From Rhodobiaceae bacterium (GTDB taxonomy: Bacteria; Pseudomonadota; Alphaproteobacteria; Parvibaculales; Parvibaculaceae), in NCBI GenBank assembly GCA_003330885.1, contig CP030277.1, positions 2,294,001 through 2,358,000 on the forward strand: a DNA stretch of 64,000 nucleotides. Reading direction: 5' to 3'. The notes beneath the pieces were generated by a model. The model was not told where the DNA came from, searched no databases, and saw nothing but the letters and a program-made list of their open reading frames with translations. The stretch's first letter is position 1. Each line of letters starts with the position of its first letter. Below are positions 23,647 through 38,445 of the stretch, piece after piece. Both the position numbers and the translations under genes were made by a program.

Positions 23647-24609
23647 ATGGCAATCAATGTTGCGCGCTATGAATTGAATGGAAACATCGGATGGGGTGTG
23701 GTCGCCGACGGCGGACTCACACCACTCGTTGGCACCTATGAGACAACAGGTGATTTCATTCGCGACGGCCGAGAAGAAGCACGCAGCATTGCTGCTTCAG
23801 GGACAGAGAACAACATCCCGCTTGATCATGTCACGCTTCTCTCACCCGTCACCCAGAACCAGCAATATGTCTGCCAGGGCACGAACTACGTCTCTCACCT
23901 GGTGGAGAGCGGCATTGATCCTGAGCAGCAGACATTCAACATGATCTTCCGCAAAGCATCCTCCTGCATTGCGCCACCCAACACGGATGTCATTCGGCCT
24001 GCCCACGTAAAACTGCTCGACTATGAGCTTGAACTTGGTCTCATATTTGGCAGAAAAATTGATGGTCCAGTCGAGGTAACCTGGGACAATCTCGCAGACT
24101 ATGTGGCTGCCCTCGTCGTCAACAACGATATTTCTGCCCGCGATGTGCAACTCCCGCAATGGCAGTTCTACAAAGGAAAATCCTATCGCACATTTGGCCC
24201 AACCGGGCCATGGCTCACCCTCATTGATCAGGGCGACGTCGAACACATCCCGGAACTGCGTTTACAGCTCTTCGTAAACGGCAAAAGCCGACAGGATGCT
24301 CTCGCTGATGATCTGTTCTTTCAGCCTCCTGAAACGCTGACGGAACTATCTGGCGTTCAGGATTTTGCGGAAGGCGATCTGCTAGCAACCGGCACACCCG
24401 GCGGCGTTGCCATGCAAGCCCCGAAAAGCAAATTGCTGATGTTCATTTCCAAGCTGATACCTGAAGCAAAAAAGTGGGAAATATTCATCAACAAAAACGT
24501 AAGCAACCCCGACTTCCTAAAGCCTGACGATGTCATTCAATCTCGCATCGCAACAGCGGATTGCTCTTTGGACCTCGGCACACAAACCAACAAAATCGTC
24601 CAAGGATAA
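23647..24609 (+). CDS. fumarylacetoacetate hydrolase family protein
   Basis: A 320-residue FAH-family enzyme. The metal site is clear (LDYELELGLIFG, the DxExxE-type motif), with VVNNDISARDVQLPQWQFYKGK and FGPTGPWL as the other conserved blocks. The C-terminal LLATGTPGGVA motif closes the active site. Such enzymes hydrolyse C-C bonds of 1,3-dicarbonyl ring-cleavage products or act as hydratase/decarboxylase. It lies 34 nt after the extradiol gene and 14 nt before the monooxygenase gene, fitting the step after ring opening. A paralogue is at 29971-30852. Confidence 0.92.
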   Translation: MAINVARYELNGNIGWGVVADGGLTPLVGTYETTGDFIRDGREEARSIAASGTENNIPLDHVTLLSPVTQNQQYVCQGTNYVSHLVESGIDPEQQTFNMIFRKASSCIAPPNTDVIRPAHVKLLDYELELGLIFGRKIDGPVEVTWDNLADYVAALVVNNDISARDVQLPQWQFYKGKSYRTFGPTGPWLTLIDQGDVEHIPELRLQLFVNGKSRQDALADDLFFQPPETLTELSGVQDFAEGDLLATGTPGGVAMQAPKSKLLMFISKLIPEAKKWEIFINKNVSNPDFLKPDDVIQSRIATADCSLDLGTQTNKIVQG

Positions 24610-24623
24610 AGCAGGGGGCTGTC

Positions 24624-26192
24624 ATGGTGCGTCGACTTGAAGCTGACATCATCATAAAAGGGGCTGGCCCCGTTGGGCTGTCCATGGCTAACCTTCTCGG
24701 CGTCTATGGCATTCGCACCCTCGTGCTTGAGCAAAACCCGACAACCGTTGAAGAGCCCCGCGCTATTGGCCTTGATGTTGAAAGCGGGCGTGCACTGCAA
24801 TCCATGGGCCTGGAAGAGATAGCATCGGCAGAAATGATGCAGGGGTTTCACCTCGATTATCTGAACGCCAAGGGCCACACCATCATGGATGTTGAGGTAG
24901 GCGAGTCGCCGTATGGCAAAGCGCAAATGTCCAGCTTCATTCAACCGGTCCTTGAGCAGCAACTGCTTAACGGCACAGAGCGCTTCGATCAGGTAACGGT
25001 GCTTTTTAACCACCAGGTTGAAGAGGTTTCGCAAACCGAAAGCCATGCAACGGCGCGGGGCATCACGAAAGATGGCGAGGCTTTTGAGGCGCGCGCGCAG
25101 TATCTTGTGGGATGTGGTGGTGGCCGATCACTGGTCCGCCGGAGCTCAAACATCCAGATGGAAGGATTTTCAAACCCTGAAGCCTGGCTAGTGATAGATA
25201 CAATCGACCCACTCCTTGATGACTGGGTCGACTGCCGTTTTTTCTGCGACCCTGAGCGCCCAGCCATGACGATGAAAAAGAAGCAGAAGCACCGTCGGTG
25301 GGAATGGATGCTACATGAGGGAGAAACCGAAGAGGAGTTTCTCGACCCGGGCCGTATCAACGAACTGCTGGCGCCACACACCGACCCGTCGCAGGTCACC
25401 ATGCTGCGAAAATGCGTCTACAACTTCAACTCAATCGTTGCAGAAGAGTATCGTGACGGGCGTCTGTTTATCGCCGGGGATGCAGCACACATGATGCCGC
25501 CCTTCGCGGGTCAGGGGATGAATTCCGGCATTCGGGACGCTGTGAACCTGAGCTGGAAGTTGGCTTCTGTCGTAAAAGGTGATGCCAACACAGCCATTCT
25601 TGATACCTACAAGACAGAACGCCGCGATCATGTTGTCAAACTCACCAAGGTCGCAAACCGCCTGGGCGCTATCATTATGCCTACCTCAAACGTGAAGGCC
25701 TGGCTCAGGGACGTGGTGCTCACGGTCGCCAACTCCTTCGAATTCACCCGGGAAGCGCTGAGGCGTTCATTCTTTGTGATCCCAAAACTGGACGAAGGCT
25801 TGTTCGTTTGGGATGGACCAGGTGCATCCTCCCGCAGCGGCGAAATGATCGTCCAGCCGAAGGTTGAAGATGCAAACGGCGAAAAAGCTTACCTGGATGA
25901 ATTCCTGCCCGAAGGGTTCGTCCTGATGGGCATTGGCGCCGACCCAAACGTAGACCTCAACAGCGAGGCAAAATCACTATGTGCAGAGCTCGGAGCCGAG
26001 TTCGTGTCCATCACTTCAAAGATAGGATCACCGGGATCAGCTCTGAAAGACGTAACGGGCGCGTTGACAGAATGGAGGGGAACCCGCCCACCATTTATTC
26101 TTCTGCGCCCGGACAGATTTACGGCCGCAATGTTTAACTCAGACGACGCAGTCGCATCGCTCAAGAACTTTATGGCGCACTATCAATCTTGA
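24624..26192 (+). CDS. FAD-dependent aromatic monooxygenase (MhpA/UbiH-like)
   Basis: About 522 residues. It has the ADP-binding GxGxxG motif at the N-terminus (IIKGAGPVGLSMANLLG), then LEQNPTTVEEPRAIGLD, the DG-type middle region, and the second FAD motif GRLFIAGDAAHMMPPFAGQGMNSG. This is the class A flavoprotein hydroxylase architecture, most like 3-(3-hydroxyphenyl)propionate hydroxylase, with a thioredoxin-like C-terminal domain. It would hydroxylate an aromatic acid or phenol with NAD(P)H before ring cleavage. The ATG at 24624 follows AGGGGG. It is the third gene of aromatic module A. Confidence 0.93.
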   Translation: MVRRLEADIIIKGAGPVGLSMANLLGVYGIRTLVLEQNPTTVEEPRAIGLDVESGRALQSMGLEEIASAEMMQGFHLDYLNAKGHTIMDVEVGESPYGKAQMSSFIQPVLEQQLLNGTERFDQVTVLFNHQVEEVSQTESHATARGITKDGEAFEARAQYLVGCGGGRSLVRRSSNIQMEGFSNPEAWLVIDTIDPLLDDWVDCRFFCDPERPAMTMKKKQKHRRWEWMLHEGETEEEFLDPGRINELLAPHTDPSQVTMLRKCVYNFNSIVAEEYRDGRLFIAGDAAHMMPPFAGQGMNSGIRDAVNLSWKLASVVKGDANTAILDTYKTERRDHVVKLTKVANRLGAIIMPTSNVKAWLRDVVLTVANSFEFTREALRRSFFVIPKLDEGLFVWDGPGASSRSGEMIVQPKVEDANGEKAYLDEFLPEGFVLMGIGADPNVDLNSEAKSLCAELGAEFVSITSKIGSPGSALKDVTGALTEWRGTRPPFILLRPDRFTAAMFNSDDAVASLKNFMAHYQS

Positions 26193-26195
26193 AGA

Positions 26196-26843
26196 TCAGA
26201 GGGATGGGATCGGCTTGGCGATGAGCTTTCTGGCCTTCTCAGGCGTAATGCCAAGATGGGTCACCAGAAGCGCAAGCCCTTCAGATACCTGTGCATCATC
26301 GATCACACCGGACAAACGGGCATTCACAAGCGATAGAACACCGCCGCCTACCAGGTTCGCAACGACATCAATATCGCTGACGACAAAATCGCCAGCCTCG
26401 ATGGCTTTTTCGACATCACGACGAAAACGAACCATCAACCCCTCGTTCAGCATGTTCAGCGTCTTCGACGACCGAAGAACAAACCATCCCCAAATTGGTT
26501 CAGAAACCGCCAGGCTCACGACCTGATGCCAGGCCACGATCTGCGCAAAGAAGGGGTCGTCAATCGGCGCAATCAGCTCATCGATCTCATCGCCCAAGCG
26601 CTCCACCATATCTTCCATGGCAGCGTCAACGATCTCGTCTTTGGATTTGAAATGATTGTAGAAGGTGCCAAAGCCCAGATCAGCAGCTTCTGTGATGTCC
26701 GCAATTGTGGTCGCATCGACACCCTTCACACTCATCATCTCGCGGGCCGCGAGGATCAAAGATGCCCGGCTCTTCTCACGCCGCCGCGAGCTTCGGTTGG
26801 GTGTTTTGGAAGCAGTTTCGGCAGCCATTAGAAGCCCGTTCAT
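26196..26843 (-). CDS. TetR/AcrR family transcriptional regulator, module A
   Basis: A TetR protein of about 210-215 residues: RASLILAAREMMSVKGVDATTI, then ADLGFGTFYNHFKSKDEIVD is the DNA-binding domain, followed by an all-helical effector domain. The start could be 26843 or an in-frame ATG at 26828; neither has a strong ribosome-binding site. It converges on the module A monooxygenase gene (3 nt between the stops) and is divergent from module B, so it may control either aromatic module. An exact inverted repeat ATCCCA-N7-TGGGAT at 26919-26937 is a possible operator. Confidence 0.92.
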   Translation of the reverse strand: MNGLLMAAETASKTPNRSSRRREKSRASLILAAREMMSVKGVDATTIADITEAADLGFGTFYNHFKSKDEIVDAAMEDMVERLGDEIDELIAPIDDPFFAQIVAWHQVVSLAVSEPIWGWFVLRSSKTLNMLNEGLMVRFRRDVEKAIEAGDFVVSDIDVVANLVGGGVLSLVNARLSGVIDDAQVSEGLALLVTHLGITPEKARKLIAKPIPSL

Positions 26844-26918
26844 GGTGTAACAACGGCCCAGCGCACGAAATTGGGGCCAGAATCATATTTGATAATTACA
26901 TCACCTTAACGCAGTTGT

Positions 26919-27000
26919 ATCCCAGAACCGATGGGATTGTTTGTCGCAGAGAAATAACAAACGATACGATTTGACACTTTTGTTTCGAATTGACTATCCT
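26919..27000 (+). promoter_or_regulatory. Promoter and operators before aromatic module B
   Basis: Two inverted repeats, ATCCCA-N7-TGGGAT (26919-26937) and GTTTGT-N12-ACAAAC (26939-26962), are followed by a -35 box TTGACA (26971-26976), an 18-nt spacer and TATCCT (26995-27000). The promoter points to the VOC gene at 27033. With one TetR gene on each side, the two repeats could be separate operators. Confidence 0.68.
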
Positions 27001-27032
27001 GAGGTCACAGAGCCAAAAAGCAGGACAAACAG

Positions 27033-27608
27033 ATGACCGCCGACACCAAACCAGTGACCCCCGCCTTCTTCGCCCATGCAGTTCTCAAGACCGGACGCTT
27101 CGAAGAAATGGTCGCCCATTGGAAAACACTGTTGAATGCCACCGTCGCATTCCAGAATCCCATGCTCTGCTTCATGACCTTCGATGAAGAACATCATCGC
27201 CTCGCCATTGCAGGCCTGCCCGGCCTCCAAGATATCGAGGATCAAGCCGCAGGACTGGATCACTTAGCCTATACCTACGCTTCCGCCGACGATCTCATCG
27301 CGACCTACGACCGGCTGAAGAGTGAGGGGATTACGCCATCCTGGTGCATCAATCACGGACCAACCCTGTCTCTTTATTACAAGGATCCAGACGGCAATCG
27401 GGCTGAACTGCAGATAGATCTGTTTTCAACACCCGAGGAAACAAATGCCTTCCTGACGTCTGAGGGATTCGCGGAGAACCCAATCGGTATCAAATTCGAC
27501 CCCGAAGAACTCTTCGGGCGATACAAAGTCGGTGAGCCACTTAAAGAACTCACCGACCGCCGTCGATTAAAAGAAGGCGAGTCCTTTCTGGAGCATCTCG
27601 ACCTATGA
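27033..27608 (+). CDS. single-domain VOC / extradiol dioxygenase-like protein
   Basis: A 191-residue vicinal-oxygen-chelate protein. Three putative metal ligands sit at the expected places: His in FFAHAVLKTGRFEE, His in AGLDHLAYTYAS and Glu in DGNRAELQIDLF. It resembles single-domain extradiol dioxygenases or glyoxalase-like proteins. It is the first gene of module B: its TGA overlaps the ATG of a TetR gene, which in turn overlaps a flavin monooxygenase gene, so the three are translated as one unit. A 60-residue C-terminal extension is rich in charge and unassigned. Confidence 0.87.
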   Translation: MTADTKPVTPAFFAHAVLKTGRFEEMVAHWKTLLNATVAFQNPMLCFMTFDEEHHRLAIAGLPGLQDIEDQAAGLDHLAYTYASADDLIATYDRLKSEGITPSWCINHGPTLSLYYKDPDGNRAELQIDLFSTPEETNAFLTSEGFAENPIGIKFDPEELFGRYKVGEPLKELTDRRRLKEGESFLEHLDL

Positions 27609-28207
27609 CCGGACCGGACACCATGCCGCAGCCAGAGCGGGACGAGAAAAAGCGCATTCAGATATTGGACTCTGCAGCTGACCTGTTTTCACGTCGCGGT
27701 TTCGATAAGACGTCGATCCGTGGTTTGGCTTCAGAAGCGCGGGTATCCACTTCAACCATCTACGCCCATTTTGCAGACAAAGATGATCTCCTTCTCCAAT
27801 CTATTGATCGGCGCCTGTCAGTGGTCGAACAGAAGGTCACGAGGATCGCGGAACATGATCCTGATCCACTTCAACAACTCAAAACAATATTGTCTGTCAT
27901 CCACAACTCGCTGAAGGACGACCCGTTCCTCCGCAAGATCCTGATATTTGATAGCCAGGTTGTGGATCACCGCCTGCATCAACGTGCCGACCTTGCGCGG
28001 AACCGCATCAAGGCTTTGGCACTTCAGGGATTGCGAAATGCAGTAACGAGTGGCGTCCTGGACTGTGATGACGTCGATGCGCTCGAAACAGTACTGCGTG
28101 TCTCTTTTCAGGGATGGGTACTAAGCGTTGAAAACGGGACAGACGAAATATCTGAAGAACGCCTGACCAAAATGCTGATCCATCTTGTGGAAGGAAGACG
28201 CAAGTGA
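27605..28207 (+). CDS. TetR/AcrR family transcriptional regulator, module B
   Basis: A 200-residue TetR protein with a clear helix-turn-helix (IQILDSAADLFSRRGFDKTS, then LASEARVSTSTIYAHFADKDD). It lies inside the module B operon, with ATGA overlap with the VOC gene and GTGA overlap with the monooxygenase gene. Regulators placed inside their operon often sense the pathway substrate or an intermediate. A second in-frame ATG six codons on (MPQPERDEKK) could be the true start, but the overlap favours 27605. Confidence 0.93.
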   Translation: MTGPDTMPQPERDEKKRIQILDSAADLFSRRGFDKTSIRGLASEARVSTSTIYAHFADKDDLLLQSIDRRLSVVEQKVTRIAEHDPDPLQQLKTILSVIHNSLKDDPFLRKILIFDSQVVDHRLHQRADLARNRIKALALQGLRNAVTSGVLDCDDVDALETVLRVSFQGWVLSVENGTDEISEERLTKMLIHLVEGRRK

Positions 28208-29961
28208 CTGTAGCCACACAAGGTACCGAAAAAACGCCTGTGCTAATCGTGGGCGGTGGCCCAACCGGCCTCCTCGCATCGCTTCTCCTGTCACGGCTCC
28301 AGGTTGACCATATTCTGGTCGAACGACGGCAGGCGCCCCAACCTGCGCCGGCAGCCCATGTTGTGAACACCCGGACGATGGAAATTCTTCGGGCAGTAGG
28401 TCTCAACACAGGAGAGTTTTACGCGCTCGACCGACATAGAGATGCCCGGTTTATCAGCTGGGTTAGCAGCCCCAGAGACAAGGCGATGGGCCAACTGTCA
28501 CTGCAGGGCGATACAGAGAGTGCAGACGATCTACGAAGGCTTTCTGAGCGGGCAGCTGCTTCCCCTGAGCACATCACCAATATTTCGCAAAACCTGTTCG
28601 AAGAAGCTCTGTTGAGCCATGCAGTAAACATGGATCATCAAGACATTCGTCTTGGGCATAGCTGGCAAGGGTTCGTCAATGGCGACACCCATCGCGTCCA
28701 AGTGACCGACCCCGATGGCACCCCCTACGAAGTTACCGCCGACTATGTTCTCGCTGCTGACGGCGCCTCAAGTGGGATCGCACGGGCTTTGGGTGTTGAT
28801 AAATCGGGACCCACATCGCTTGCAACCTTTCTCAATCTGAGCTGCGAAGTCGACCTCACCCAAATCGTCGCGGAACAACAGTCCCTTCTTTACTGGTGCC
28901 TCAGCCCCGAGACACCAGGAATCCTTATTGTTCATGACCCGAAGTCGCTGACGGTATACATGCGGCCGGTGTTTGAGCCCTATGAAACAGCGGAAGATTA
29001 TTCAGACGAACGCTGCGAGACCTTGATCAAAGAGATATTTGGATCTGATGTCCCCGTCCGCATCACCTACAAAGGTGTTTGGAACATGTCAGCTCAGGTC
29101 GCCGAGCGTTTCGCCGTCGATAACGTCTTCTTAGTTGGAGATGCCGCGCATCGTTTCCCGCCAACAGGCGGTCTGGGCTTAAACTCCGGAGCAGGCGACA
29201 TTCACAATCTGGTTTGGAAGCTGGCTGCAGTTCTCAAACACAATGCCCCATCCTACCTCCTCTCCAGCTATGAAGCCGAACGGAAACCAGTTGCCGAACG
29301 CAACTGTGCCACCAGCGTCAACAATTTCCTCAAAATGAAAGAAGTGACCGATACGCTGGGGCTAGATGCAGACAAAGCCCATCTGCCAGCCATGCTTAGA
29401 GCATCACCCTTTGCTAGATGGCTGCCATCTTCCTTAATCGACTGGTTGCTCAAGCTGCTAAGCCGCCCCGCGCTGCGAAAACTCCAAACCGCCATGTCAA
29501 ACACCAGCGATGGCGAAATGCAGCGCCAGCGACTACAGAAATCCATCGACAACCAGGCAGAGCATTTCGACATGCTGGGTGCAGAGCTTGGATATATTTA
29601 TTCGGAGGGGTGCGCGGTTGATCCGAGCTCAAGCGCAACACCAACAAGCACCACTCGGGATTATACGCCGACTTCCGGCGCTGGCGCACGCCTGCCCCAC
29701 ATCTCCCTGGAAGAGAACGGCACGATCAAATCAAGTCTGGACCTGGTTTCTTATGACGGGTTTCGCCTCTTCACAAATGGGACAGCGAGCAATCCGCCGA
29801 ACACATCTTGGACGCAAGGGCTCCCCTGCCAGACGGTAAATCTCGAAGACTTCAATAACCACACAACAGCTGCTGCTGCCTTTGACCTGGAGCCAGGATC
29901 CTGGGTCCTGGTGCGGCCCGACGGGCACGTGGCCACGCGCTCGTCACCCACCCTCACATAG
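28204..29961 (+). CDS. FAD-dependent aromatic monooxygenase, module B
   Basis: A 585-residue class A flavoprotein hydroxylase. The N-terminus has VLIVGGGPTGLLASLLLSRL, then VERRQAPQPAPAAHVVNTRT, a DG motif (LAADGASSGIARALG), and the FAD motif VFLVGDAAHRFPPTGGLGLN. The C-terminal domain is of the phenol-hydroxylase/TcmG-like thioredoxin type. It would add a hydroxyl to an aromatic ring using NAD(P)H. The GTG start overlaps the TetR TGA. It differs from the module A enzyme in length and motifs, so the two modules probably take different substrates. Confidence 0.93.
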   Translation: MTVATQGTEKTPVLIVGGGPTGLLASLLLSRLQVDHILVERRQAPQPAPAAHVVNTRTMEILRAVGLNTGEFYALDRHRDARFISWVSSPRDKAMGQLSLQGDTESADDLRRLSERAAASPEHITNISQNLFEEALLSHAVNMDHQDIRLGHSWQGFVNGDTHRVQVTDPDGTPYEVTADYVLAADGASSGIARALGVDKSGPTSLATFLNLSCEVDLTQIVAEQQSLLYWCLSPETPGILIVHDPKSLTVYMRPVFEPYETAEDYSDERCETLIKEIFGSDVPVRITYKGVWNMSAQVAERFAVDNVFLVGDAAHRFPPTGGLGLNSGAGDIHNLVWKLAAVLKHNAPSYLLSSYEAERKPVAERNCATSVNNFLKMKEVTDTLGLDADKAHLPAMLRASPFARWLPSSLIDWLLKLLSRPALRKLQTAMSNTSDGEMQRQRLQKSIDNQAEHFDMLGAELGYIYSEGCAVDPSSSATPTSTTRDYTPTSGAGARLPHISLEENGTIKSSLDLVSYDGFRLFTNGTASNPPNTSWTQGLPCQTVNLEDFNNHTTAAAAFDLEPGSWVLVRPDGHVATRSSPTLT

Positions 29962-29970
29962 GAATATTTC

Positions 29971-30852
29971 ATGCGCCTTTACACAACCGATCGCGGTATT
30001 GCCAAACAGGTGGATGAAGACACTCTTGCTGTCCTCGATCTCCCACACGCAGACCTCGGCTCTCTCCTCACCATAGACCCCTACCTCTCAACGATTGCGG
30101 ACGCACCCGTACGAGAGACGGTGCCAATCTCTGAGGCAACATTGCGGGCACCTATCCCACGCCCCTCAAAAGTTTTTTGCATGAGCGCAAACTATCACAG
30201 TCATTTAGACGATGAAGTTGCCGGCGTCTTAAAGATGCTAAATCCAGAGGGTGGTGACGACCAGATCAAGGCTCTAAAATCCACACCCACCTTCTTTGGC
30301 GTCCCGTCCAGTGCCGTGACCGGACCGAATGACTCAATCAAGCTCCCCGTCATAGCACCCGACCAGGTGGATTATGAAGTCGAGGTGGCCGCTGTCATCG
30401 GAAAGGGAGGGCGCGATATAAAGCCCGCGGACGCATGGGACCATATCGCGGGATTTACACTATCCAACGATGTCTCAGCCCGTGATCTGCAACAACAAGC
30501 AATGAGCGCACCTTTTTTTGAGTTGGGTCATGCGAAAGGACTCGACACGTTCAAGCCTCTGGGTCCGTGCCTTGTGACACGCGATGTGTTTTCGCAGCCC
30601 TTTGACATTGCTATCGAAACAAAGATCAACGGAGAAATAAGGCAAGCTGCCCGCACCACCGACATGGTCCACTCGGTCGAAGCCTCAATTGCGGAAATTT
30701 CGCGCTACTTCACCCTCAATCCGGGCGACGTCATTTTAACCGGCTCTCCATCCGGCGTCGGCTTCTTTCAGGGCAAATTCCTGAAGCCCGGTGACACTAT
30801 TGAAATGACAGCAGAGGGCATAGGTACGCTGTGCAACAAAGTTGTTGGCTGA
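29971..30852 (+). CDS. fumarylacetoacetate hydrolase family protein, module B
   Basis: A 293-residue FAH-family enzyme. Conserved blocks are VFCMSANYHSHL (start of the catalytic domain), VDYEVEVAAVIGKGGRDI (metal-binding DxExxE type), FTLSNDVSARDLQ and ILTGSPSGVGFF. It probably hydrolyses the ring-cleavage product made by the upstream enzymes. It begins 9 nt after the monooxygenase stop with AGGAA as ribosome-binding site and is the last gene of module B. Confidence 0.92.
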   Translation: MRLYTTDRGIAKQVDEDTLAVLDLPHADLGSLLTIDPYLSTIADAPVRETVPISEATLRAPIPRPSKVFCMSANYHSHLDDEVAGVLKMLNPEGGDDQIKALKSTPTFFGVPSSAVTGPNDSIKLPVIAPDQVDYEVEVAAVIGKGGRDIKPADAWDHIAGFTLSNDVSARDLQQQAMSAPFFELGHAKGLDTFKPLGPCLVTRDVFSQPFDIAIETKINGEIRQAARTTDMVHSVEASIAEISRYFTLNPGDVILTGSPSGVGFFQGKFLKPGDTIEMTAEGIGTLCNKVVG

Positions 30853-31485
30853 CGATCCCGGAATAGTTTTTAGGGGAAATGATGCGCAAAATCGGGCGGC
30901 CGCCCCACCGCTCAAATCCCATGATCTAAGCGATTTTCCACTACCGTACGCAATCTCTGTGTACCGGTTAAAAGCTCAGCTTATTCGCTACGTCCGGGGC
31001 CCCACCCCACCTTTTGGCTCAAAAACAGAAGAGCCGAAAATATCCTGTTTTGTCCCGCTCCACCATGAAGATCCCTCTAAACGCGCGCACTATCCCAGTA
31101 TATGTGCTACAAGAGCAAATCTAGCGATTGAACATGCGCGTCTGCCCTTGCGCTGATGGGGCCAATGACGTCATTTTTCGAACGGATGAAGCCTGCGTTT
31201 GGGGTTTGAACTCGATTTCAGACCCACAGGACCTTGAGCTCACCGCAACAATTGCTGCCAAGAAGCGCGAATAGCGGCGTTGATCAATACCGGAGATGCA
31301 ACAACCGCATTCTCTCGGGAAGAGTCGTCACGTGCTCCTCCTGCAATTCTGTCGAATGCAAGGCCTGTGGCGACGACCACAATGTGTAGCCGCTCATCGC
31401 ATTTTTCAGCACCACATTCAGAAACCGTCATAAAACCGCCAACGCGCTCCTGCTGTTGGCGCACGATCCTATTTAAGGAAACCAA
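30853..31485. other. 633-nt region without a convincing gene
   Basis: Two weak open frames occur here (plus 30842-31156, minus 31240-31485). Neither matches a family I know, and neither has a good ribosome-binding site and start together. An inverted repeat AAAACAG-N16-CTGTTTT lies near 31020-31050. The region must contain the promoter of the DUF1611 gene. Confidence 0.55.
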
Positions 31486-32685
31486 ATGTCTTTGACCAAC
31501 GGCCCCAAACTAGTCCATTCAACTGGCAACGGGAACAGGCCCACTAGCGCAGGCGACGACAAAAAAATTGTCGAGTTTCCGACACCCGTCAAAGCAGAGA
31601 AAATTCCCACTGCAATCGTATATTGTGAAGGAAATTTCGGCGCCTTAGATGGAAAGACTGCCAACGGCCTGGTTCGGCATTCAGAGAAATACAAAATCCT
31701 GTCTGTTATCGACAGCGAGAAAGCGGGCATGGATAGCGGTGTTGTCCTTGACGACCAACCCAATGACATTCCCATCAATCGCGATCTAACGGATGCGCTG
31801 ACACAGTTGAGAGAAACACCTGACTATTTCATCTTCGGAATGGCACCTTTGAGCGGCATGTTGTCGACACACGAGCGGAAGGTGATGATCGATGCCATGA
31901 ACCGGGGCATGAACCTCGTGAACGGCTTGCATGAATTTCTGAACGAGGATCCAGCTTTCGCAGCAGCGTCCGCGGCCAACAATGTCAAGATCATTGATAT
32001 TCGCAGACCTCGCGCCAAGAAAGATCTGCGCATGTTCAGTGGGAGCATTGCGAAGGTAAAATGCCCGCGGATTGCAATCCTTGGAACCGATAGCGCCATC
32101 GGCAAGCGAACAACAGCAACCATTCTAACCCAGGCTCTGAAAGACCGAGGTATCAACGCCGTGATGGTTGGCACAGGCCAAACCGGGTTGATCCAAGGTG
32201 CCCGCTACGGTATCGCTCTCGACGCTATTCCCTCGCAGTTTTGCTCAGGGGAGATGGAAGCAACAATGGTGGAGGCATTTGAGGGAGAGAAGCCCGACGT
32301 GATCATCGTTGAAGGCCAGGGCGCCTTGAGCCATCCAGCCTACCTTACCTCGACCTTTATTCTGCGCGGAAGCCAGCCTGATGGTGTCGTATTGCAGCAC
32401 GCACCAGCTCGCACCCATCTCGGTGACTTTCCAGATACATTGATGCCAACCCCAGAGAGCGAGATCAAACTCATCGAGACCTTTGCAAAAACCAAAGTGA
32501 TTGGTGTTACCATCAACCATGAGAACATGACCGATGCCGATGTCAGTGACGCGATCAAACTCTATGAGCACGACCTAGGCATTCCTGCCACCGATGCGCT
32601 GACACGGTCGCCGGACTTTCTGGTAGAAATGGTTCTCGCGTCTTTCCCTCAGCTCAAGCAGAAGCTGCCAGTCAGTGTTCATTGA
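31486..32685 (+). CDS. DUF1611 family protein (DgcN-like N-acyltransferase candidate)
   Basis: A 399-residue DUF1611 protein. The N-terminal Rossmann-like domain carries AIVYCEGNFGALDGKTANGLVRH. The C-terminal half has a P-loop (ILGTDSAIGKRTTA) with VMVGTGQTGLIQGARYG and IIVEGQGALSHPA, as in dethiobiotin-synthetase-like NTPases. A DUF1611 member, DgcN, has been described as a D-glutamate N-acetyltransferase in a D-amino-acid pathway. Here the next gene is a PLP-dependent racemase overlapping by TTGA, which supports an amino-acid stereochemistry role. AAGGAA precedes the ATG. The exact substrate is not shown. Confidence 0.85.
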   Translation: MSLTNGPKLVHSTGNGNRPTSAGDDKKIVEFPTPVKAEKIPTAIVYCEGNFGALDGKTANGLVRHSEKYKILSVIDSEKAGMDSGVVLDDQPNDIPINRDLTDALTQLRETPDYFIFGMAPLSGMLSTHERKVMIDAMNRGMNLVNGLHEFLNEDPAFAAASAANNVKIIDIRRPRAKKDLRMFSGSIAKVKCPRIAILGTDSAIGKRTTATILTQALKDRGINAVMVGTGQTGLIQGARYGIALDAIPSQFCSGEMEATMVEAFEGEKPDVIIVEGQGALSHPAYLTSTFILRGSQPDGVVLQHAPARTHLGDFPDTLMPTPESEIKLIETFAKTKVIGVTINHENMTDADVSDAIKLYEHDLGIPATDALTRSPDFLVEMVLASFPQLKQKLPVSVH

Positions 32686-33755
32686 CCGCCCCTCGGCTAG
32701 AGATAGATCTCGAAAAAATCCAACACAATGCTCGCACGCTTGTTGAAAGGCTCAACAAGCGTGGCATCACTGTTTGGGGAGTGACCAAAGCGGCGCTAGG
32801 CATGCCTGCGATTGCCAGGACATTAAGAGCTGCGGGAGTGGGAGGTCTGGCTGACTCGCGGATAGAAAACATCCAAACCATGCGCCGCACAGCGATAGCA
32901 GCACCCATGGTGCTCATTCGCTCCCCAATGCTCAGTCAGGCGGAACTTGTAATCACGAACGCCGACATAAGCCTCAACACTGAGCTCGAGGTTATCTCGG
33001 AACTCTCAAAAGCAGCCTATGCAGCTGGGCGCGAGCACGGTGTCTTATTGATGGTGGAGCTAGGTGATCTGCGGGAAGGCATCCTGCCAGCCGACCTTGA
33101 AGAAACAGTGCGCAAAACGCTTTGCCTAACCAACATAAAATTCAAAGGCATAGGCACCAATCTGGCCTGTCGCAGTGGCGTTGCACCAGATGAAAGAAAT
33201 ATGCGGGAATTGTCATCGCTCGCCGACGCAATAGACGCAACTTTTGGTCCCATCACCTCAATCGTATCTGGCGGCAATTCAAGCAATCTCGGGTGGGCGC
33301 TTAGCGCTGCTGATCCCGGACGGATCAACAATCTACGGCTAGGGGAGGCAATTTTGCTCGGGTGCGAACCACTCCACCGGCAGCCCATCGAAGGACTGTT
33401 TACAGATGCGATCACTCTCGTCGCCGAAGTGATCGAAGCGAAGGTGAAACCATCCCAGCCTTGGGGTGAGATAGCAGAAACTGCGTTTGGCGCAGCACCA
33501 CTCCCCGCAGACCGCGGACCTATTTTTCAGGCCATCCTCGCACTGGGCCATATGGATACAGATCCAAAAGGCCTCACCGCGCCCTCAGACATCACCATTT
33601 TGGGGTCAAGCAGCGACCACCTCGTCGTTGAATGCAGCAAAACACGGCCCGCGGTCGGTGACGAGATGACGTTCGGACTCAATTACAGCGCGTTGGTCCG
33701 CGCCATGGGATCGCCACTGGTTGCCAAGAAAACGCTAGCCCATCCATTGAGATGA
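32682..33755 (+). CDS. PLP-dependent alanine/ornithine racemase family protein
   Basis: A 357-residue fold type III PLP enzyme of the alanine/ornithine racemase family. The lysine that holds PLP is expected in VWGVTKAALGMP near residue 30. Other conserved parts are NTELEVISELSKAA, VELGDLREGI, GTNLACRSGV and VSGGNSSNLGWAL. The start is TTG, overlapping the TGA of the DUF1611 gene by four bases, so the two proteins are made together. It probably interconverts D- and L-forms of an amino acid or of its N-acyl derivative. The tRNA-Val gene follows on the opposite strand. Confidence 0.87.
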   Translation: MTAPRLEIDLEKIQHNARTLVERLNKRGITVWGVTKAALGMPAIARTLRAAGVGGLADSRIENIQTMRRTAIAAPMVLIRSPMLSQAELVITNADISLNTELEVISELSKAAYAAGREHGVLLMVELGDLREGILPADLEETVRKTLCLTNIKFKGIGTNLACRSGVAPDERNMRELSSLADAIDATFGPITSIVSGGNSSNLGWALSAADPGRINNLRLGEAILLGCEPLHRQPIEGLFTDAITLVAEVIEAKVKPSQPWGEIAETAFGAAPLPADRGPIFQAILALGHMDTDPKGLTAPSDITILGSSSDHLVVECSKTRPAVGDEMTFGLNYSALVRAMGSPLVAKKTLAHPLR

Positions 33756-33781
33756 AACTGGCTCTTCGGTTTGAGAGAAAA

Positions 33782-33856
33782 TGGTGGGCGATACTGGGAT
33801 TGAACCAGTGACCTCCTCGATGTCAACGAGGCGCTCTCCCGCTGAGCTAATCGCCC
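33782..33856 (-). tRNA. tRNA-Val (GAC anticodon)
   Basis: Read on the minus strand, the 75-nt gene begins GGGCGATTAGCTCAGCGGG (acceptor and D arm), has the anticodon arm CCTCG-TTGACAT-CGAGG with anticodon GAC, a T arm with GGTTCAATCC, and ends with an encoded CCA. The acceptor stem GGGCGAT pairs with ATCGCCC. It sits between the racemase and cpdR genes. Confidence 0.97.
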
Positions 33857-33989
33857 TTCCATGTCCGCAGCGCCAAAAATTGGCGGAATAACTACCTTCA
33901 GCGAAGCTGACCGGACGGCACGTAATATCGGGAATAGGATGTGGACGCAAGCCGTCCAGACGATTTCCGTGAAGAAATCTGCAATAGCA

Positions 33990-34349
33990 CTAGGCCGCCA
34001 TCAAGCGATCAACTTCATCGACCAGATCCCGCAGATGGAAGGGCTTGGAAAGCACTTTCGCGTCCTTGGGTGTTTCTGACTCTGGATTGAGCGCAACCGC
34101 AGCAAAGCCGGTAATGAACATAATCTTGAGCGTTGGATCGAGTTCAGCCGCACGACGGGCCAGCTCAATGCCATCCATCTCTGGCATCACAATATCTGTC
34201 AGCAGAATGTCAAACACATCGTGCTGAAGCGTTGCATAGGCCAGATCGCCCTGTCCGAAGGACAAGACCTCATGACCGGCCGAATCCAGCGCTTTAGCAA
34301 GGAAACGCCGCATTGATTCGTCGTCTTCTGCGAGGATTATCCGTGCCAT
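33990..34349 (-). CDS. cpdR: CpdR-type response regulator
   Basis: A 119-residue single-domain receiver. It begins MARIILAEDDESMRRFLAKA with the acidic pocket (EDD) near residues 8-10, the phosphoacceptor Asp52 in LLTDIVMPEMDG, the Thr in MFITGFAAVAL and the Lys in VLSKPFHL. The sequence and length are those of CpdR, which in Caulobacter and relatives brings substrates such as PdeA to ClpXP when unphosphorylated and so controls the cell cycle. It is divergent from an N-formylglutamate amidohydrolase gene, a neighbourhood seen in many alphaproteobacteria. The start at 34349 fits the family; an upstream extension in frame is not used. Confidence 0.93.
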   Translation of the reverse strand: MARIILAEDDESMRRFLAKALDSAGHEVLSFGQGDLAYATLQHDVFDILLTDIVMPEMDGIELARRAAELDPTLKIMFITGFAAVALNPESETPKDAKVLSKPFHLRDLVDEVDRLMAA

Positions 34350-34621
34350 GTGCCAATTCCCGTCTGTCTGGGTCTCTGTCCGTCCCCTATTTATAAGCGG
34401 CAAAGAGTAAACGAGATGTAAAGGTGGGATTGGTGCGGCTGCCGTTGGAAGCCAGACCCAGCGCCAAATTTCAAAGAAAATGCCACACCTCATGGTTAAA
34501 AAAGCGTGATCTACACCGGAAAGGCGGCAACAGCCGCCAGAATCGCCTAAGCTGACGACGCGCCTTCAAAACCGGCCATAGAAGTCGGAAACGCCCCTGT
34601 TTCAGCTGTTCGGCCTTTTTC

Positions 34622-35596
34622 ATGGATCTCAACCAAACCCATTCGTTATCTGATCAGGAGATTGAGGGCTTCAGCAATAATGAGGCTGTTGACGATCGCT
34701 CGCCTGCGAAAGCGGACTTTCAGGAGCCCTTCGAAGTCCTGGAACCCCGGAAACAGACGCTACCATTTGTCCTGAATTCACCACACTCAGGCCGCATATA
34801 TCCACCCAGATTTTTGGCATCATCAAATCTCGATCCCCTAACGCTGCGGCGTTCAGAAGACAGTTTTGTCGATGAGATTTTCGCAGGTGCGGTTGAACTC
34901 GGCGCCCCTTTGCTGCGTGCCCATTTTCCGCGCGCCTATCTGGATGTAAACCGCGAGCCCTATGAACTCGACCCGGCAATGTTTGCGGACCCTCTCCCAC
35001 CGCACGTGAACACACGTTCAATCAGAGTAGCAGGTGGTCTGGGCACCATTGCGAGGATCGTGGCCGAGGCAACAGAGATATACAAAACACCACTCCCCTA
35101 TTCAGAGGCTGAGACACGCATTCGCGACATCTACATGCCCTTTCACGAAACACTCAGGGGCTTGCTGGAGACAACACACCGGCAGTTTGGCCAGGCCGTG
35201 CTAATCGATTGCCACTCCATGCCCTCAACAGGCGGCCCCTTCGACGATGAAATAGAGGCTAATCGCCCCGACATTGTCCTCGGCGATCGATACGGAACGT
35301 CTTGCGCACAAGAACTAGTAGAGTCCGCGGAGCGTATCCTAAAGTCTATGGGGTACAGAGTGACCCGCAACAATCCCTATGCAGGTGGCTTCAACACTGA
35401 GCACTATGGTGCGCCCTCTCAGGGTCTTCATGCGATACAGGTTGAAATCAACCGAACGCTCTACATGGACGAGCAAAAGGTTCAACGTCGCGCTGGCATT
35501 ACACGCTTGTCTAAAGACATGACCCGTTTGGTCCGCAAACTGGGTCGTGAAATGCGCCGGGGATCCTGGACTGCATCCCAAAGAAAAGCGTCCTGA
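34622..35596 (+). CDS. N-formylglutamate amidohydrolase family protein
   Basis: A 324-residue protein of the N-formylglutamate amidohydrolase family. Typical segments are VLNSPHSGRIYPPRFL (with the HSG metal-binding motif), RSEDSFVDEIFAGAVELGAPLL, ARIVAEATEIYKTPL, VLIDCHSMPSTGG and FNTEHYGAPSQGLHAIQVEINR. In histidine breakdown this enzyme makes formate and L-glutamate, but no hut genes are near, so another acyl-glutamate may be its substrate. The DUF1611 and racemase genes about 1 kb upstream are interesting in that light. The family start is uncertain by up to about 25 residues. Confidence 0.9.
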   Translation: MDLNQTHSLSDQEIEGFSNNEAVDDRSPAKADFQEPFEVLEPRKQTLPFVLNSPHSGRIYPPRFLASSNLDPLTLRRSEDSFVDEIFAGAVELGAPLLRAHFPRAYLDVNREPYELDPAMFADPLPPHVNTRSIRVAGGLGTIARIVAEATEIYKTPLPYSEAETRIRDIYMPFHETLRGLLETTHRQFGQAVLIDCHSMPSTGGPFDDEIEANRPDIVLGDRYGTSCAQELVESAERILKSMGYRVTRNNPYAGGFNTEHYGAPSQGLHAIQVEINRTLYMDEQKVQRRAGITRLSKDMTRLVRKLGREMRRGSWTASQRKAS

Positions 35597-35632
35597 GCCC
35601 AATCCTCACCGACAGCCGCTGAGCCCTGCACC

Positions 35633-35730
35633 AAAAAAAGGGGCCATACTGTTGCCAGCATGGCCCAAGTCTAGGGAGGAAACGCCCAAGAAGGGCTGCT
35701 ATCAGGGAGCTTAAACTCACGCCTGATCGC
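35633..35730 (-). ncRNA. Candidate suhB/mmgR-like small RNA
   Basis: On the minus strand, a -35 TTGATT (35760-35765), 17-nt spacer and -10 CATATC (35737-35742) predict a start near 35730. The transcript would have a 5' stem (ATCAG ... CTGAT), a hairpin with GCCC/GGGC, an unpaired GGGCGTTTCCTCCCTAG stretch complementary to Shine-Dalgarno sequences, and a terminator hairpin (GGGCCAT/ATGGCCCC, 35640-35666) followed by TTTTTTT. A TTTCCTCCC loop and this order match what I recall of the alphaproteobacterial suhB/mmgR (alpha-r8) sRNA family. Size about 98 nt. Confidence 0.72.
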
Positions 35731-36001
35731 CTTTGAGATATGCGCGTGCAGTGCACAAAAATCAAGGACAAACACCTGCGACACTTTGGAAAATACTGGA
35801 AAAATCGCTTAATATTTGGGCATTTTTGGATTTTTCCCTGAAATTTCGCAGATTGCGTTGCAACAATTCAACATGGCCCATGCCTTGGCCACAGAACCCA
35901 CACGTAAGCGTTCATTAACTCTTTCAGCGCACCATAAGGCTGTTGAAAGACGCAAAGGGACCAAGCGCGCTACCAAATGTCTGGCGCGCGGGAAAAGGCA
36001 C

Positions 36002-36730
36002 ATGAAGGCTTGGACACCATCACAGATACTGATTTGGGCTACTGCCCTGTTCGGCATCGCCTTGACTGGTGCGCCAGCTAGTGCTGACGATTGGGACGTC
36101 TGTCGAAATGCAGCTGCCCGTATGGAGCAGCAACACAACATGCCCACAGGCATGATGACATCCATCGCCCTGGTTGAATCTGGACGCCGTTCCCCCAAAG
36201 GGGATGTCAAATCCTGGCCTTGGACAATCAATGCGGAGGGCCGCGCCTACTATTTTGCCACTCGCAACGATGCCGTAGACGCTGTCCGTCGGCTAATGTC
36301 TGAGGGCATGCGCACAATCGACATCGGGTGCATGCAGATAAACCTGCGCTTCCACCCAAGAGCATTCACAAGCGTTGAAGAAGCATTTGATCCTATGTCG
36401 AATGTCGCCTATGCAGCCTATTTTCTGAGAGACTTGGAAACACGCAGCGACAGCTGGGACCAGGCAATCGGGCGTTACCACTCATTCTCGCCAGCGTTAA
36501 ACGCACGCTATTCTGCCCGTGTTCAAGCTGTATGGGGAAAAGAGCGGGAAACAGCACGCGCAAATCCGGACCAGCATCCTTCGACAGACGAGGCGACCGC
36601 AGCTGAACATGCAGGATTGCGCCTCTCATCCTATAGCGATGATTTGCAACGCTATTCAGACGATTTTTCAGAAGCGAGCGTGATCCCAGGTCCAATCACA
36701 TTGACCGAAACAGCCAGCCTTTCACGCTAG
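36002..36730 (+). CDS. lytic transglycosylase domain protein
   Basis: About 242 residues. A signal peptide (ILIWATALFGIALTGAPASA|DD) is followed by an SLT-type lysozyme-like domain. The catalytic Glu lies in SIALVESGR, and the family motif IDIGCMQINLRFHP and YAAYFLRDLETRS, AIGRYHSFSP follow. It would cleave peptidoglycan glycan strands in the periplasm, making room for envelope machines. A Ser- and Thr-rich tail of about 60 residues is unassigned. The ATG at 36002 is chosen because it places the signal peptide right at the N-terminus. Confidence 0.88.
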   Translation: MKAWTPSQILIWATALFGIALTGAPASADDWDVCRNAAARMEQQHNMPTGMMTSIALVESGRRSPKGDVKSWPWTINAEGRAYYFATRNDAVDAVRRLMSEGMRTIDIGCMQINLRFHPRAFTSVEEAFDPMSNVAYAAYFLRDLETRSDSWDQAIGRYHSFSPALNARYSARVQAVWGKERETARANPDQHPSTDEATAAEHAGLRLSSYSDDLQRYSDDFSEASVIPGPITLTETASLSR

Positions 36731-36888
36731 CGCCGTAAACTCCTGGCCATCCCTGGCCAACCAAAAATCCCCACATTTCTGTGACTCAAATTGATAAGCC
36801 TAAAGTTGCATCAAGGCTTAACTGTTTGTGTGCATAATCGATAAAACTTGTTCGTATGCGTTCAACCCTTTGACCGTGAAAGACCAAC

Positions 36889-38445
36889 ATGGAAACGACT
36901 GCTGCGCAAGGAGCCACACCTTCGATGGTTCTCACCTTCATTGATGCGATGTCCGCTCTTTTCCTATTTGGCATTGGCCTGATTGTCCTTGGCCTTGTTG
37001 TCGCCTACATCGTCGATCGCACACAAACAACCCACGCTATCCGCCGCAACTATCCAATCATCGGACGCTTTCGCTATTTCTTTGAAAGTCTCGGCGAATA
37101 TTTTCGTCAGTATTTCTTTGCCATGGATCGCGAGGAAATGCCGTTCAACCGGGCTCAACGCGCCTGGGTATACAGAGCCGCCAAAGGCGCTGATACGACC
37201 GTTGCTTTCGGTTCAACCCGCGATTTAAAACCAAACGGGACCATCTTCTTCGTCAATTGCCCCTTTCCGACCCTGGACGAAGATTCTGTTTCTCCGAGCC
37301 AGATTGAAATCGGCCCCTTTTGCGACAAGCCTTACAAAACGTCCTCCATCTTCAACATCTCAGGCATGAGCTATGGAGCTATTTCCAAACCTGCTGTGCG
37401 TGCCTTGTCCAAAGGCGCGGCAAAGGCAGGATGCTGGCTGAATACCGGAGAAGGCGCCCTGTCCCCCTACCACTTGGAAGGCGGCGCTGACATTGTCTTT
37501 CAGATTGGTACAGCGAAATATGGCGTCCGGGACAGAGCGGGTAGCCTCTCAGATAAGAGGCTCCGTGAAATAGCGGCGCACGACCAAGTCAAAATGTTTG
37601 AGATCAAGTTGAGCCAGGGAGCCAAGCCGGGCAAAGGCGGCATCTTGCCAGCCGCCAAGGTGAGCAAAGAAATCGCTCAGATCAGAGGCATCGAACGGGG
37701 CAAAGACTCAATCAGTCCCAATCGCCATCCGGAAATCAACAGCCCTGAACAACTCCTCCAGTACATCGAGCGGGTGCGCTCTGTCACAGGTAAGCCTGTC
37801 GGCATTAAGTTTGTTCTGGGGGCGCACGGTTTCCTAGATGATCTCTTCTCAATGCTGGAGCACAATCCGGAACTGGCACCTGACTTCATCACGCTGGACA
37901 GCGCAGACGGCGGAACAGGCGCCTCTCCGCAGCCCCTGATCGACTTCGTTGGGATGCCGATCTGGGAGAGCCTCCCAATCCTGATCGATAAGCTTGATCA
38001 ATATGGCCTGCGCCCACGCATCAGAGTGAACGCTGGGGGAAAACTCATCAATCCAGGCGACGTCGCATGGGCCTTATCTGTAGGTGCCGACTTCGTCACC
38101 AGCGCACGAGGCTTCATGTTTTCGCTTGGATGCATTCAAGCCCTGCAGTGCAATCAAAATTCCTGTCCAACGGGCATCGCAACACACCAGAAAAAGCTTC
38201 AACGCGGACTCGATCCAAAAGACAAGGCAGAGCGCGTCCGACGCTATCAGGAACGCATCACAGGCGAAGTCTGCATGATCGCCAGATCATGTGGTGTGAG
38301 CGAACCGCGCCTGCTTCAGCGCAAGCACGCACGGATCAACACCCCCACAGGCTTCTCCGTAGACCTTGACGAATACTACCGGCGTGTCATGAATGGCGAA
38401 CTGCAAGCAATTGATGCCCGCCCAAGCGTTGCCGCCGTCGGCTAG
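36889..38445 (+). CDS. FMN-binding glutamate synthase family protein
   Basis: A 518-residue protein made of one N-terminal membrane helix (ALFLFGIGLIVLGLVVAYIV) and the FMN/3Fe-4S domain of glutamate synthase large subunits (NISGMSYGAISKPAVRAL, ITLDSADGGTGASPQPLIDF). A Cys cluster for 3Fe-4S is visible (GCIQALQCNQNSCPTG). It lacks the glutaminase domain, so it cannot use glutamine alone as GltB does. Members of this family are often called GltB-like or archaeal-type glutamate synthases; the true role is unclear. A second, genuine gltB starts at 63107. Confidence 0.9.
   Translation: METTAAQGATPSMVLTFIDAMSALFLFGIGLIVLGLVVAYIVDRTQTTHAIRRNYPIIGRFRYFFESLGEYFRQYFFAMDREEMPFNRAQRAWVYRAAKGADTTVAFGSTRDLKPNGTIFFVNCPFPTLDEDSVSPSQIEIGPFCDKPYKTSSIFNISGMSYGAISKPAVRALSKGAAKAGCWLNTGEGALSPYHLEGGADIVFQIGTAKYGVRDRAGSLSDKRLREIAAHDQVKMFEIKLSQGAKPGKGGILPAAKVSKEIAQIRGIERGKDSISPNRHPEINSPEQLLQYIERVRSVTGKPVGIKFVLGAHGFLDDLFSMLEHNPELAPDFITLDSADGGTGASPQPLIDFVGMPIWESLPILIDKLDQYGLRPRIRVNAGGKLINPGDVAWALSVGADFVTSARGFMFSLGCIQALQCNQNSCPTGIATHQKKLQRGLDPKDKAERVRRYQERITGEVCMIARSCGVSEPRLLQRKHARINTPTGFSVDLDEYYRRVMNGELQAIDARPSVAAVG

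Follow-up and report, generated by a model that had tools for sequence, protein, structure and literature searches.

An overlapping DUF1611 and PLP racemase gene pair, conserved across phyla, with a possible role in capping a D-amino acid

What could a DUF1611 protein do when its gene overlaps that of a pyridoxal 5'-phosphate (PLP) racemase? The question is raised by a 64,000-nucleotide stretch of a Rhodobiaceae bacterium genome (contig CP030277.1, positions 2,294,001 to 2,358,000; hereafter the window, whose own numbering is used below). A gene for a DUF1611 protein of 399 amino acids (31486..32685, + strand), read from its open reading frame, Pfam matches and AlphaFold2 model as a Rossmann-like N domain (DUF1611_N) followed by a P-loop C domain, adjoins a TTG-started gene on the same strand (32682..33755) for a 357-amino-acid PLP fold-III amino-acid racemase, placed in the Orr-like family by Pfam, NCBIfam and its model. 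The two meet in a TTGA stop-start overlap (32682..32685, + strand), with the racemase TTG at 32682-32684 and the DUF1611 TGA at 32683-32685, an arrangement that likely couples their translation. A single fused DUF1611-racemase protein is ruled out, as these are two separate overlapping reading frames. DgcN, the one DUF1611 protein with a named function in the libraries searched, acetylates D-glutamate with acetyl-CoA. The original prediction read the locus as the DgcN-DgcA route for D-glutamate, with another class of racemase in place of DgcA and a nearby amidohydrolase that could release glutamate. What it described of the locus, namely the TTGA overlap, the DUF1611 protein, the PLP fold-III racemase and an amidohydrolase-domain gene 0.87 kb further on, is confirmed throughout by coordinates and domain scans.

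DUF1611 and this class of racemase form a real, conserved pair. A phylum sample of 398 genomes was searched for both genes, with the first 4 or 5 candidates per genome scored in the whole-genome searches, and DUF1611 matches came from 72 of them. One class, with identity of at least 57% over the matched stretch, comprises ten of these genomes, among them the window's own, and since all 10 have the racemase directly downstream with the same 4-nucleotide overlap, the overlap is not due to chance. The remaining 62 genomes contain only relatives at 28-36% identity (in one case matching over a short fragment), and the 14 genomes whose racemase match is better than E 1e-40 include none of these 62. 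A second, distant DgcN-like DUF1611 is also present in six of the 10 pair genomes, and because both occur in the same genomes the DgcN-like DUF1611 and the pair are not substitutes for one another. Among Verrucomicrobiota, the phylum of genome G440, a DUF1611 match was found in 9 of 194 genomes, with pair-type identity (69%) only in G440 itself.

A wider set came from the genome collection, scanned with an alignment of this class: the best 80 of at least 574 confirmed DUF1611 relatives, at 65-76% identity. The racemase lies directly 3' on the same strand in 76 of these 80 closest loci (in three of them a contig end truncates the locus). If the racemase start closest to the DUF1611 stop is chosen, a rule that favours overlap, the genes overlap by 4 nucleotides in 68 of the 80 and by 1 nucleotide in 6, with unclear starts in 2; the furthest upstream start still gives the 4-nucleotide overlap in 56 of the 80. 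The original prediction was to fall if DUF1611 and the racemase occurred apart in most relatives. For this DUF1611 clade that outcome did not occur, since the two stay together; in the wider DUF1611 family they are apart.

When the genes around 89 loci were clustered, none of the families other than the pair itself occurred in more than 13 of them, and the pair is therefore the unit. This set includes the window and leaves out L077, while the 89 loci searched for matches to the amidohydrolase, DgcA and M81 proteins include L077 and leave out the window; both contain L071, a DUF1611 locus at 38.6% identity with no racemase. Alignments and trees used 88 complete pairs, which are the 98 DUF1611 loci (L071 lies outside these) minus 5 without a racemase, 3 clipped by contig ends, and L136 and L157, which have no usable start; only alignments A1 and A2 include L014, which is the same place as L067. 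For these 88 pairs, the correlation between the DUF1611 and racemase distance matrices is r 0.90, the maximum in 1000 permutations being 0.30. Since linked genes that are inherited together also co-vary, this correlation indicates a common history and not, alone, a common function.

The DUF1611 protein scores well over the gathering thresholds for PF07755 (229.5 bits versus 25) and PF17396 (88.7 bits versus 22.6). Its nearest NCBIfam model is DgcN (NF041892), which it matches at 165.7 bits, below the curated cut-off of 480. The AlphaFold2 model has a predicted local distance difference test (pLDDT) score of 88.0 and a predicted template modelling (pTM) score of 0.82, and its best solved Foldseek matches are 2obn, 2g0t and 7xrj (DgcN), with template modelling (TM) scores of 0.80-0.91 by target length. 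After these DUF1611 structures come partial matches to MurD, BioD and other P-loop proteins, those to MurD and BioD with TM scores of 0.17-0.34 by query. A weak match to the bioD model TIGR00347 covers residues 198-235 (E 0.00087), around the P-loop motif GTDSAIGKRTT that the alignment places at residues 200-210 (32083..32115, + strand). Within this motif G200, T201, D202, G206, K207 and T210 are common to DgcN-type rows and invariant in A3, the 51-row alignment that resulted from taking 50 of 71 usable loci for the structure alignments; the 50 other A3 sequences, from many phyla, show 62-73% identity to the window protein. Pair-type and DgcN-type proteins have 43 conserved columns in common, including the P-loop, EGQG-L-H, K57, H305, R309 and N344. 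Another 26 columns are conserved within each type yet switched between pair type and DgcN type, among them Q251/D, R294/H, Q304/C, D314/G and H345/T, although 4 of the 26 are gaps in DgcN and some others are mild changes. This pattern suggests a DgcN-like core that perhaps acts on a different substrate. In a tree with DgcN rows, and with L025 left out, the pair clade (88 rows plus four lone DUF1611 proteins) has weak support of 51.

PF01168 is the sole Pfam match of the racemase (91.8 bits). The best NCBIfam model is that of ornithine racemase Orr (NF040742), at 340.1 bits; as this score and that of the DUF1611 protein against DgcN both fall below a cut-off of 480, the curated rules name neither an Orr nor a DgcN here. 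The alanine racemase model TIGR00492 gives 32.2 bits against a cut-off of 168. The AlphaFold2 model (pLDDT 93.3, pTM 0.91) best matches alanine racemases, with TM scores by query of 0.70-0.79 among the matches listed, and neither this fold nor the Pfam assignment is that of the enolase superfamily to which DgcA belongs. The presumed PLP lysine K36 (codon at 32787..32789, + strand) is present in all 88 pair racemases and all 10 comparison rows. Pair racemases retain R131, C163, R219, D312, H313 and Y335, and the residues that mark the Orr family as a whole (K36, R131, R219, D312, H313 and Y335) are found in every row. Together with 38% identity to an Orr-annotated Ilyobacter protein this ties the racemase to the Orr-like family; it differs from Orr in its score under the 480-bit cut-off and in forming a clade of its own. 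All 88 pair racemases fall in that clade with a support of 100 (FastTree), with none of the 10 comparison rows inside and without grouping with Orr, one of the two Orr rows in this tree being so named by the label given in this analysis only. E126 and W205, found in all 88 members, mark the clade; at these positions the 10 comparison rows carry D and L or A.

The nearest racemases outside the pair in the phylum sample are 43-45% identical, and their genomes gave no DUF1611 match. Two of these that were scanned, L046 and L048, are fused to an arginase-family domain and differ in this from the pair racemase. A further relative, a 595-amino-acid protein on a Shinella plasmid (L074:8001-9788), has the same build by length as the fusions and adjoins genes for a D-amino acid dehydrogenase and a 5-guanidino-2-oxopentanoate decarboxylase. 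These neighbours suggest that arginine may be the substrate of the Shinella relative, and an arginine racemase route is likely for this protein and the fusions. As a first guess, the pair racemase may act on basic amino acids.

The closest known system in arrangement is DgcN-DgcA. In Pseudoalteromonas sp. CF6-2 (NF041892; 7xrj) dgcN and dgcA also overlap, in the same order, so that both systems have a DUF1611 gene followed by an overlapping racemase gene. They differ in the racemase, which is of the enolase type in DgcN-DgcA and PLP fold III in the pair, as well as in the DgcN score and the switched columns described above. A DgcA relative lies within 1.5 kb on either side in 22 of 23 DgcN-like loci, and no DgcA-type match was found in the 89 loci of the pair-type search (83 with the racemase, 6 without). 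An unlinked DgcA-like gene (47%) is present in the window's genome and in all four congeners searched. A third arrangement occurs on a Haladaptatus plasmid (L072:8719-12081), where a DUF1611 gene stands between two dipeptide epimerase genes, after a D-aminoacylase gene. PLP racemases are described as forming an external aldimine with the alpha-amino group of their substrate, and N-acyl amino acid racemases as metal-dependent enzymes of the enolase type (PMC8142540). Because PLP chemistry requires a free alpha-amine, the racemase must precede any alpha-N-acylation by DUF1611. The order of steps must then differ from that of DgcN-DgcA if the DUF1611 of the pair caps the alpha-amine, and the proposal that a PLP racemase fills the DgcA role on an alpha-N-acetylated substrate is excluded on chemical grounds.

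The most frequent neighbour family in the pair's loci encodes an MlrC-type metallopeptidase of family M81, found in 13 of 89. It lies downstream on the same strand in L088:9263-10879, L113:9279-10769 and L126:3484-4992, overlapping the racemase gene by 4 nucleotides in L113 and L126; it is divergent and upstream in eight related loci, and nearby in L083 and L156. Identity to the L126 copy is 70-82% in the other 12. PF07364 and PF07171 were both found in all six copies scanned, and the metal-ligand motifs HE-N, D-H-N and Y-H-D are kept in 13 of 13, so that these neighbour enzymes resemble the microcystinase MlrC in carrying both M81 domains and the motifs. A rough background of 18 matches in 37 genomes (about 141 Mb) would give about 0.15 expected in the 1.15 Mb of the loci, where the background genomes were chosen by hand and not at random, the threshold was looser than that of the 89-locus search, and the eight related loci amount to a single event. 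Passages in two papers describe MlrC as cutting the Adda-Glu amide of linear microcystin (PMC9506587, PMC9603262). The window carries the two-gene core alone, with no M81 gene beside its pair and an unlinked 32% relative as the only match to the L126 protein in its genome.

Tentatively, and with somewhat less than even confidence, we favour a two-enzyme module in which a D-amino acid made available by the racemase has its amine capped by DUF1611. A free amino acid would be interconverted between L and D by the racemase, and DUF1611 would then modify the amino group of the D enantiomer, N-acetylation or some other N-acylation being the most likely cap, to give an N-acyl-D-amino acid; capping would pull the racemisation one way. 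Where an MlrC-type enzyme adjoins the pair, it would either reverse the capping by cleaving the amide or serve as the source of the D-amino acid. The order of the steps, the acylation and the identity of the amino acid are inferred. A broader version, possible though on balance doubtful, is that the cassette (two genes, or three with the MlrC-type amidase in some lineages) makes an N-capped D-amino acid that has yet to be described and that would serve as solute, store or signal, and that the cassette has travelled as a unit among bacteria of at least 13 phyla. Many pair hosts, judged from their record names, are marine or sediment organisms.

Several observations weigh against this two-enzyme reading. 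The acyl-transfer chemistry would be carried over from one characterised relative at about 25-33% identity, and the modelled DUF1611 fold also resembles the ATP-dependent enzymes BioD and MurD. Four of the 80 closest loci (L125, L129, L141 and L152) keep DUF1611 without an adjoining racemase, and an Orr-like racemase was not found in three of these genomes and lies elsewhere in the fourth. Clustering of the 89 loci found no recurrent transporter, regulator, pathway gene, dehydrogenase or catabolic regulator. As for the MlrC-type enzyme, the L126 protein is unmatched in 8 of the 11 pair-holding genomes searched; in G000 and G003 its sole match is a relative at 32-33%, which is common to congeners without the pair (all 7 genus genomes); and only G222 has a 60% copy, which is unlinked. 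G247 has a 60% copy without the pair. A passage in one report on strain B-9 also states that the hydrolysis of simple amino acid amides and esters is not due to MlrC (PMC5852478).

The chief rival, somewhat unlikely in our estimate, makes DUF1611 an ATP-dependent enzyme resembling ligases or carboxylases that joins the D-amino acid to another group, with MlrC as the matching hydrolase. The P-loop GTD-x(3)-GKRTT and EGQG are kept in the pair clade, the weak bioD match and the MurD and BioD structures ranking after DUF1611 point the same way, and MlrC-type enzymes cut amides; against this, the BioD and MurD matches are partial, and the only named function in the libraries searched is that of an N-acetyltransferase, DgcN (NF041892; title of 7xrj). 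It is also conceivable, at a lower probability again, that the pair is catabolic or protective, with toxic or refractory D-amino acids racemised to L and DUF1611 capping an unusable remainder. Such a role would suit the catabolic settings of Orr-like relatives, as in the Shinella plasmid neighbours and the two arginase-family fusions, and the position of several plasmid copies of the pair near the stress genes groEL, hflKC and nhaA. It fits poorly with a neighbourhood in which no dehydrogenase, transporter or catabolic regulator recurs, and a plain racemase would need no partner kept in overlap over 13 phyla.

We consider the D-glutamate route of the original prediction improbable. By domain the protein belongs to the family of DgcN, whose gene overlaps dgcA in the same order in strain CF6-2; a named member of the MlrC family releases a Glu amine, according to a passage in PMC9506587, and an MlrC neighbour occurs in some loci; and the window's genome holds the unlinked DgcA-like gene. 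The identification of DUF1611 as DgcN nevertheless fails on its score of 165.7 bits against 480 and on the many conserved columns that are switched. The PLP racemase cannot act on an N-acetylated alpha-amine, and D-glutamate is not indicated as its substrate, the closest relatives found being Orr-like racemases and racemases presumed to act on arginine. The same six genomes that hold both a DgcN-like DUF1611 and the pair also speak against this route, as does the amidohydrolase, which has no match in the 89 loci. Finally, the two genes could be functionally separate, neighbours by chance or through shared mobile DNA, as the patchy distribution and the plasmid location of the pair in several records might suggest. 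We give this very little credence, since across 13 phyla the two genes stay adjacent and in the same order whereas their other neighbours change, and the two proteins co-vary, though common descent of linked genes would produce that as well.

The analysis sets apart a second widespread DUF1611 class, one nearly always accompanied by a PLP racemase, where the sole named function in the libraries searched belongs to DgcN, beside an enolase racemase. Naming these genes DgcN or ornithine racemase exceeds the curated rules, and surveys that count DUF1611 genes as a sign of D-glutamate use may over-count. The pair is a minimal system of two proteins that could be assayed in vitro and could reveal a new D-amino acid product. 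Among the papers listed by a literature search, with subscription journals and preprints outside its scope, none shows a DUF1611-PLP racemase pair.

Among 70 complete pairs with a named phylum, 13 phyla are represented. The tree requires 17 changes of phylum label, where 12 is the minimum and shuffled labels average 36.0 (FastTree only), and phyla thus cluster on the pair tree with some crossings; many of the genome-collection loci are metagenome bins that may hold foreign contigs, and single phylum labels may be wrong. Plasmid-borne pairs occur in Vibrio, Phaeobacter, Ruegeria and Aliiroseovarius. Decay is also observed: on one Vibrio coralliilyticus plasmid DUF1611 persists with the racemase gone, and matches on a Roseibium plasmid span racemase residues 219-349 only. 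Judged by its genes and their distribution, the pair appears to be a self-contained mobile two-gene module, patchy in its spread.

Closer to the window, the pair was found in 2 of 40 genomes searched from its order and 2 of 7 from its genus, with G003 carrying it at the same place. In congener G002 a 2.9-kb block containing the pair (30854..33777) is absent, with 20 bases in its stead. The flanking window segments 24001-30853 and 33778-38444 find their counterparts in L167, on stretches next to each other that are these 20 bases apart in G002, and the pair therefore sits in a clean 2.9-kb block beside a tRNA-Val gene. From congener comparison alone, gain and loss of the block would look the same. 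No long direct repeat was found at the block edges, where the best matches are 10 bases, and base composition gives no proof of transfer, the guanine plus cytosine fraction being 0.52 in DUF1611, 0.55 in the racemase and 0.54 in the window.

Downstream of the racemase, the tRNA-Val gene (33782-33856) and cpdR (NF046022, 197.5 bits, cut-off 180), both on the - strand, precede the N-formylglutamate amidohydrolase (FGase)-domain gene (34622-35596, + strand), which starts 866 bases past the racemase stop. Its protein matches PF05013 at 258 bits and the HutG N-formylglutamate deformylase model TIGR02017 at 108.4 bits, under the cut-off of 278.75. The gene is present in 21 of the 25 relatives of the window's genome that were searched, including all 7 of the genus, though only 2 of these hold the pair, and the protein has no match in the 89 other loci (1.15 Mb). 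The amidohydrolase proposed as a partner of the pair thus looks like an unrelated neighbour.

Upstream, a hairpin-forming leader, CGCCAAC-11 nt-GTTGGCG (31437..31461, + strand), was recognized by eye and in the predicted fold of the window's leader, its 3' edge 24 bases ahead of the DUF1611 start. The hairpin is at the same place in L003, with identical arms and a different loop, and L093 and L094 have different arms at this position with pairing retained; among the 98 loci the hairpin-loop pattern was found only in these four, besides two matches in L098. An Rfam scan of 30850-31700 gave no match at E up to 5. The hairpin is possibly an operator or leader element. Adjoining the site of the pair, the region 26897-31263 encodes a VOC-like protein and a TetR-like regulator (both named by eye), a flavin adenine dinucleotide (FAD) monooxygenase and an FAA hydrolase. 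It is absent from congeners G001 and G003 and mostly kept in G002, and appears to be a variable catabolic island.

Two other kinds of neighbour were observed around the pair in other genomes. Genes for groEL/groES or hflK/hflC lie within 12 kb of this DUF1611 in L066, L067, L069, L070, L077, L101, L103 and L109; clustering placed groEL in 4 loci and hflK/hflC in 3, with hflK/hflC in L077 by annotation as well. The association is not general, and in several loci it is as if the pair-type DUF1611 rides on stress islands. A Cys-rich family of about 210-300 amino acids, with repeated YG-GW-C-GF-C units and a start that by eye resembles a signal peptide, is encoded upstream of the pair in 11 loci from two phyla (L067:8853-9692, L068, L069, L091, L097, L109, L117, L118, L121, L132 and L146), in 10 of them on the same strand; none is beside the pair in the window. 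The L091 protein has no Pfam match, and the three plasmid copies match EGF_MSP1_1 at 28-49 bits, over a cut-off of 27.

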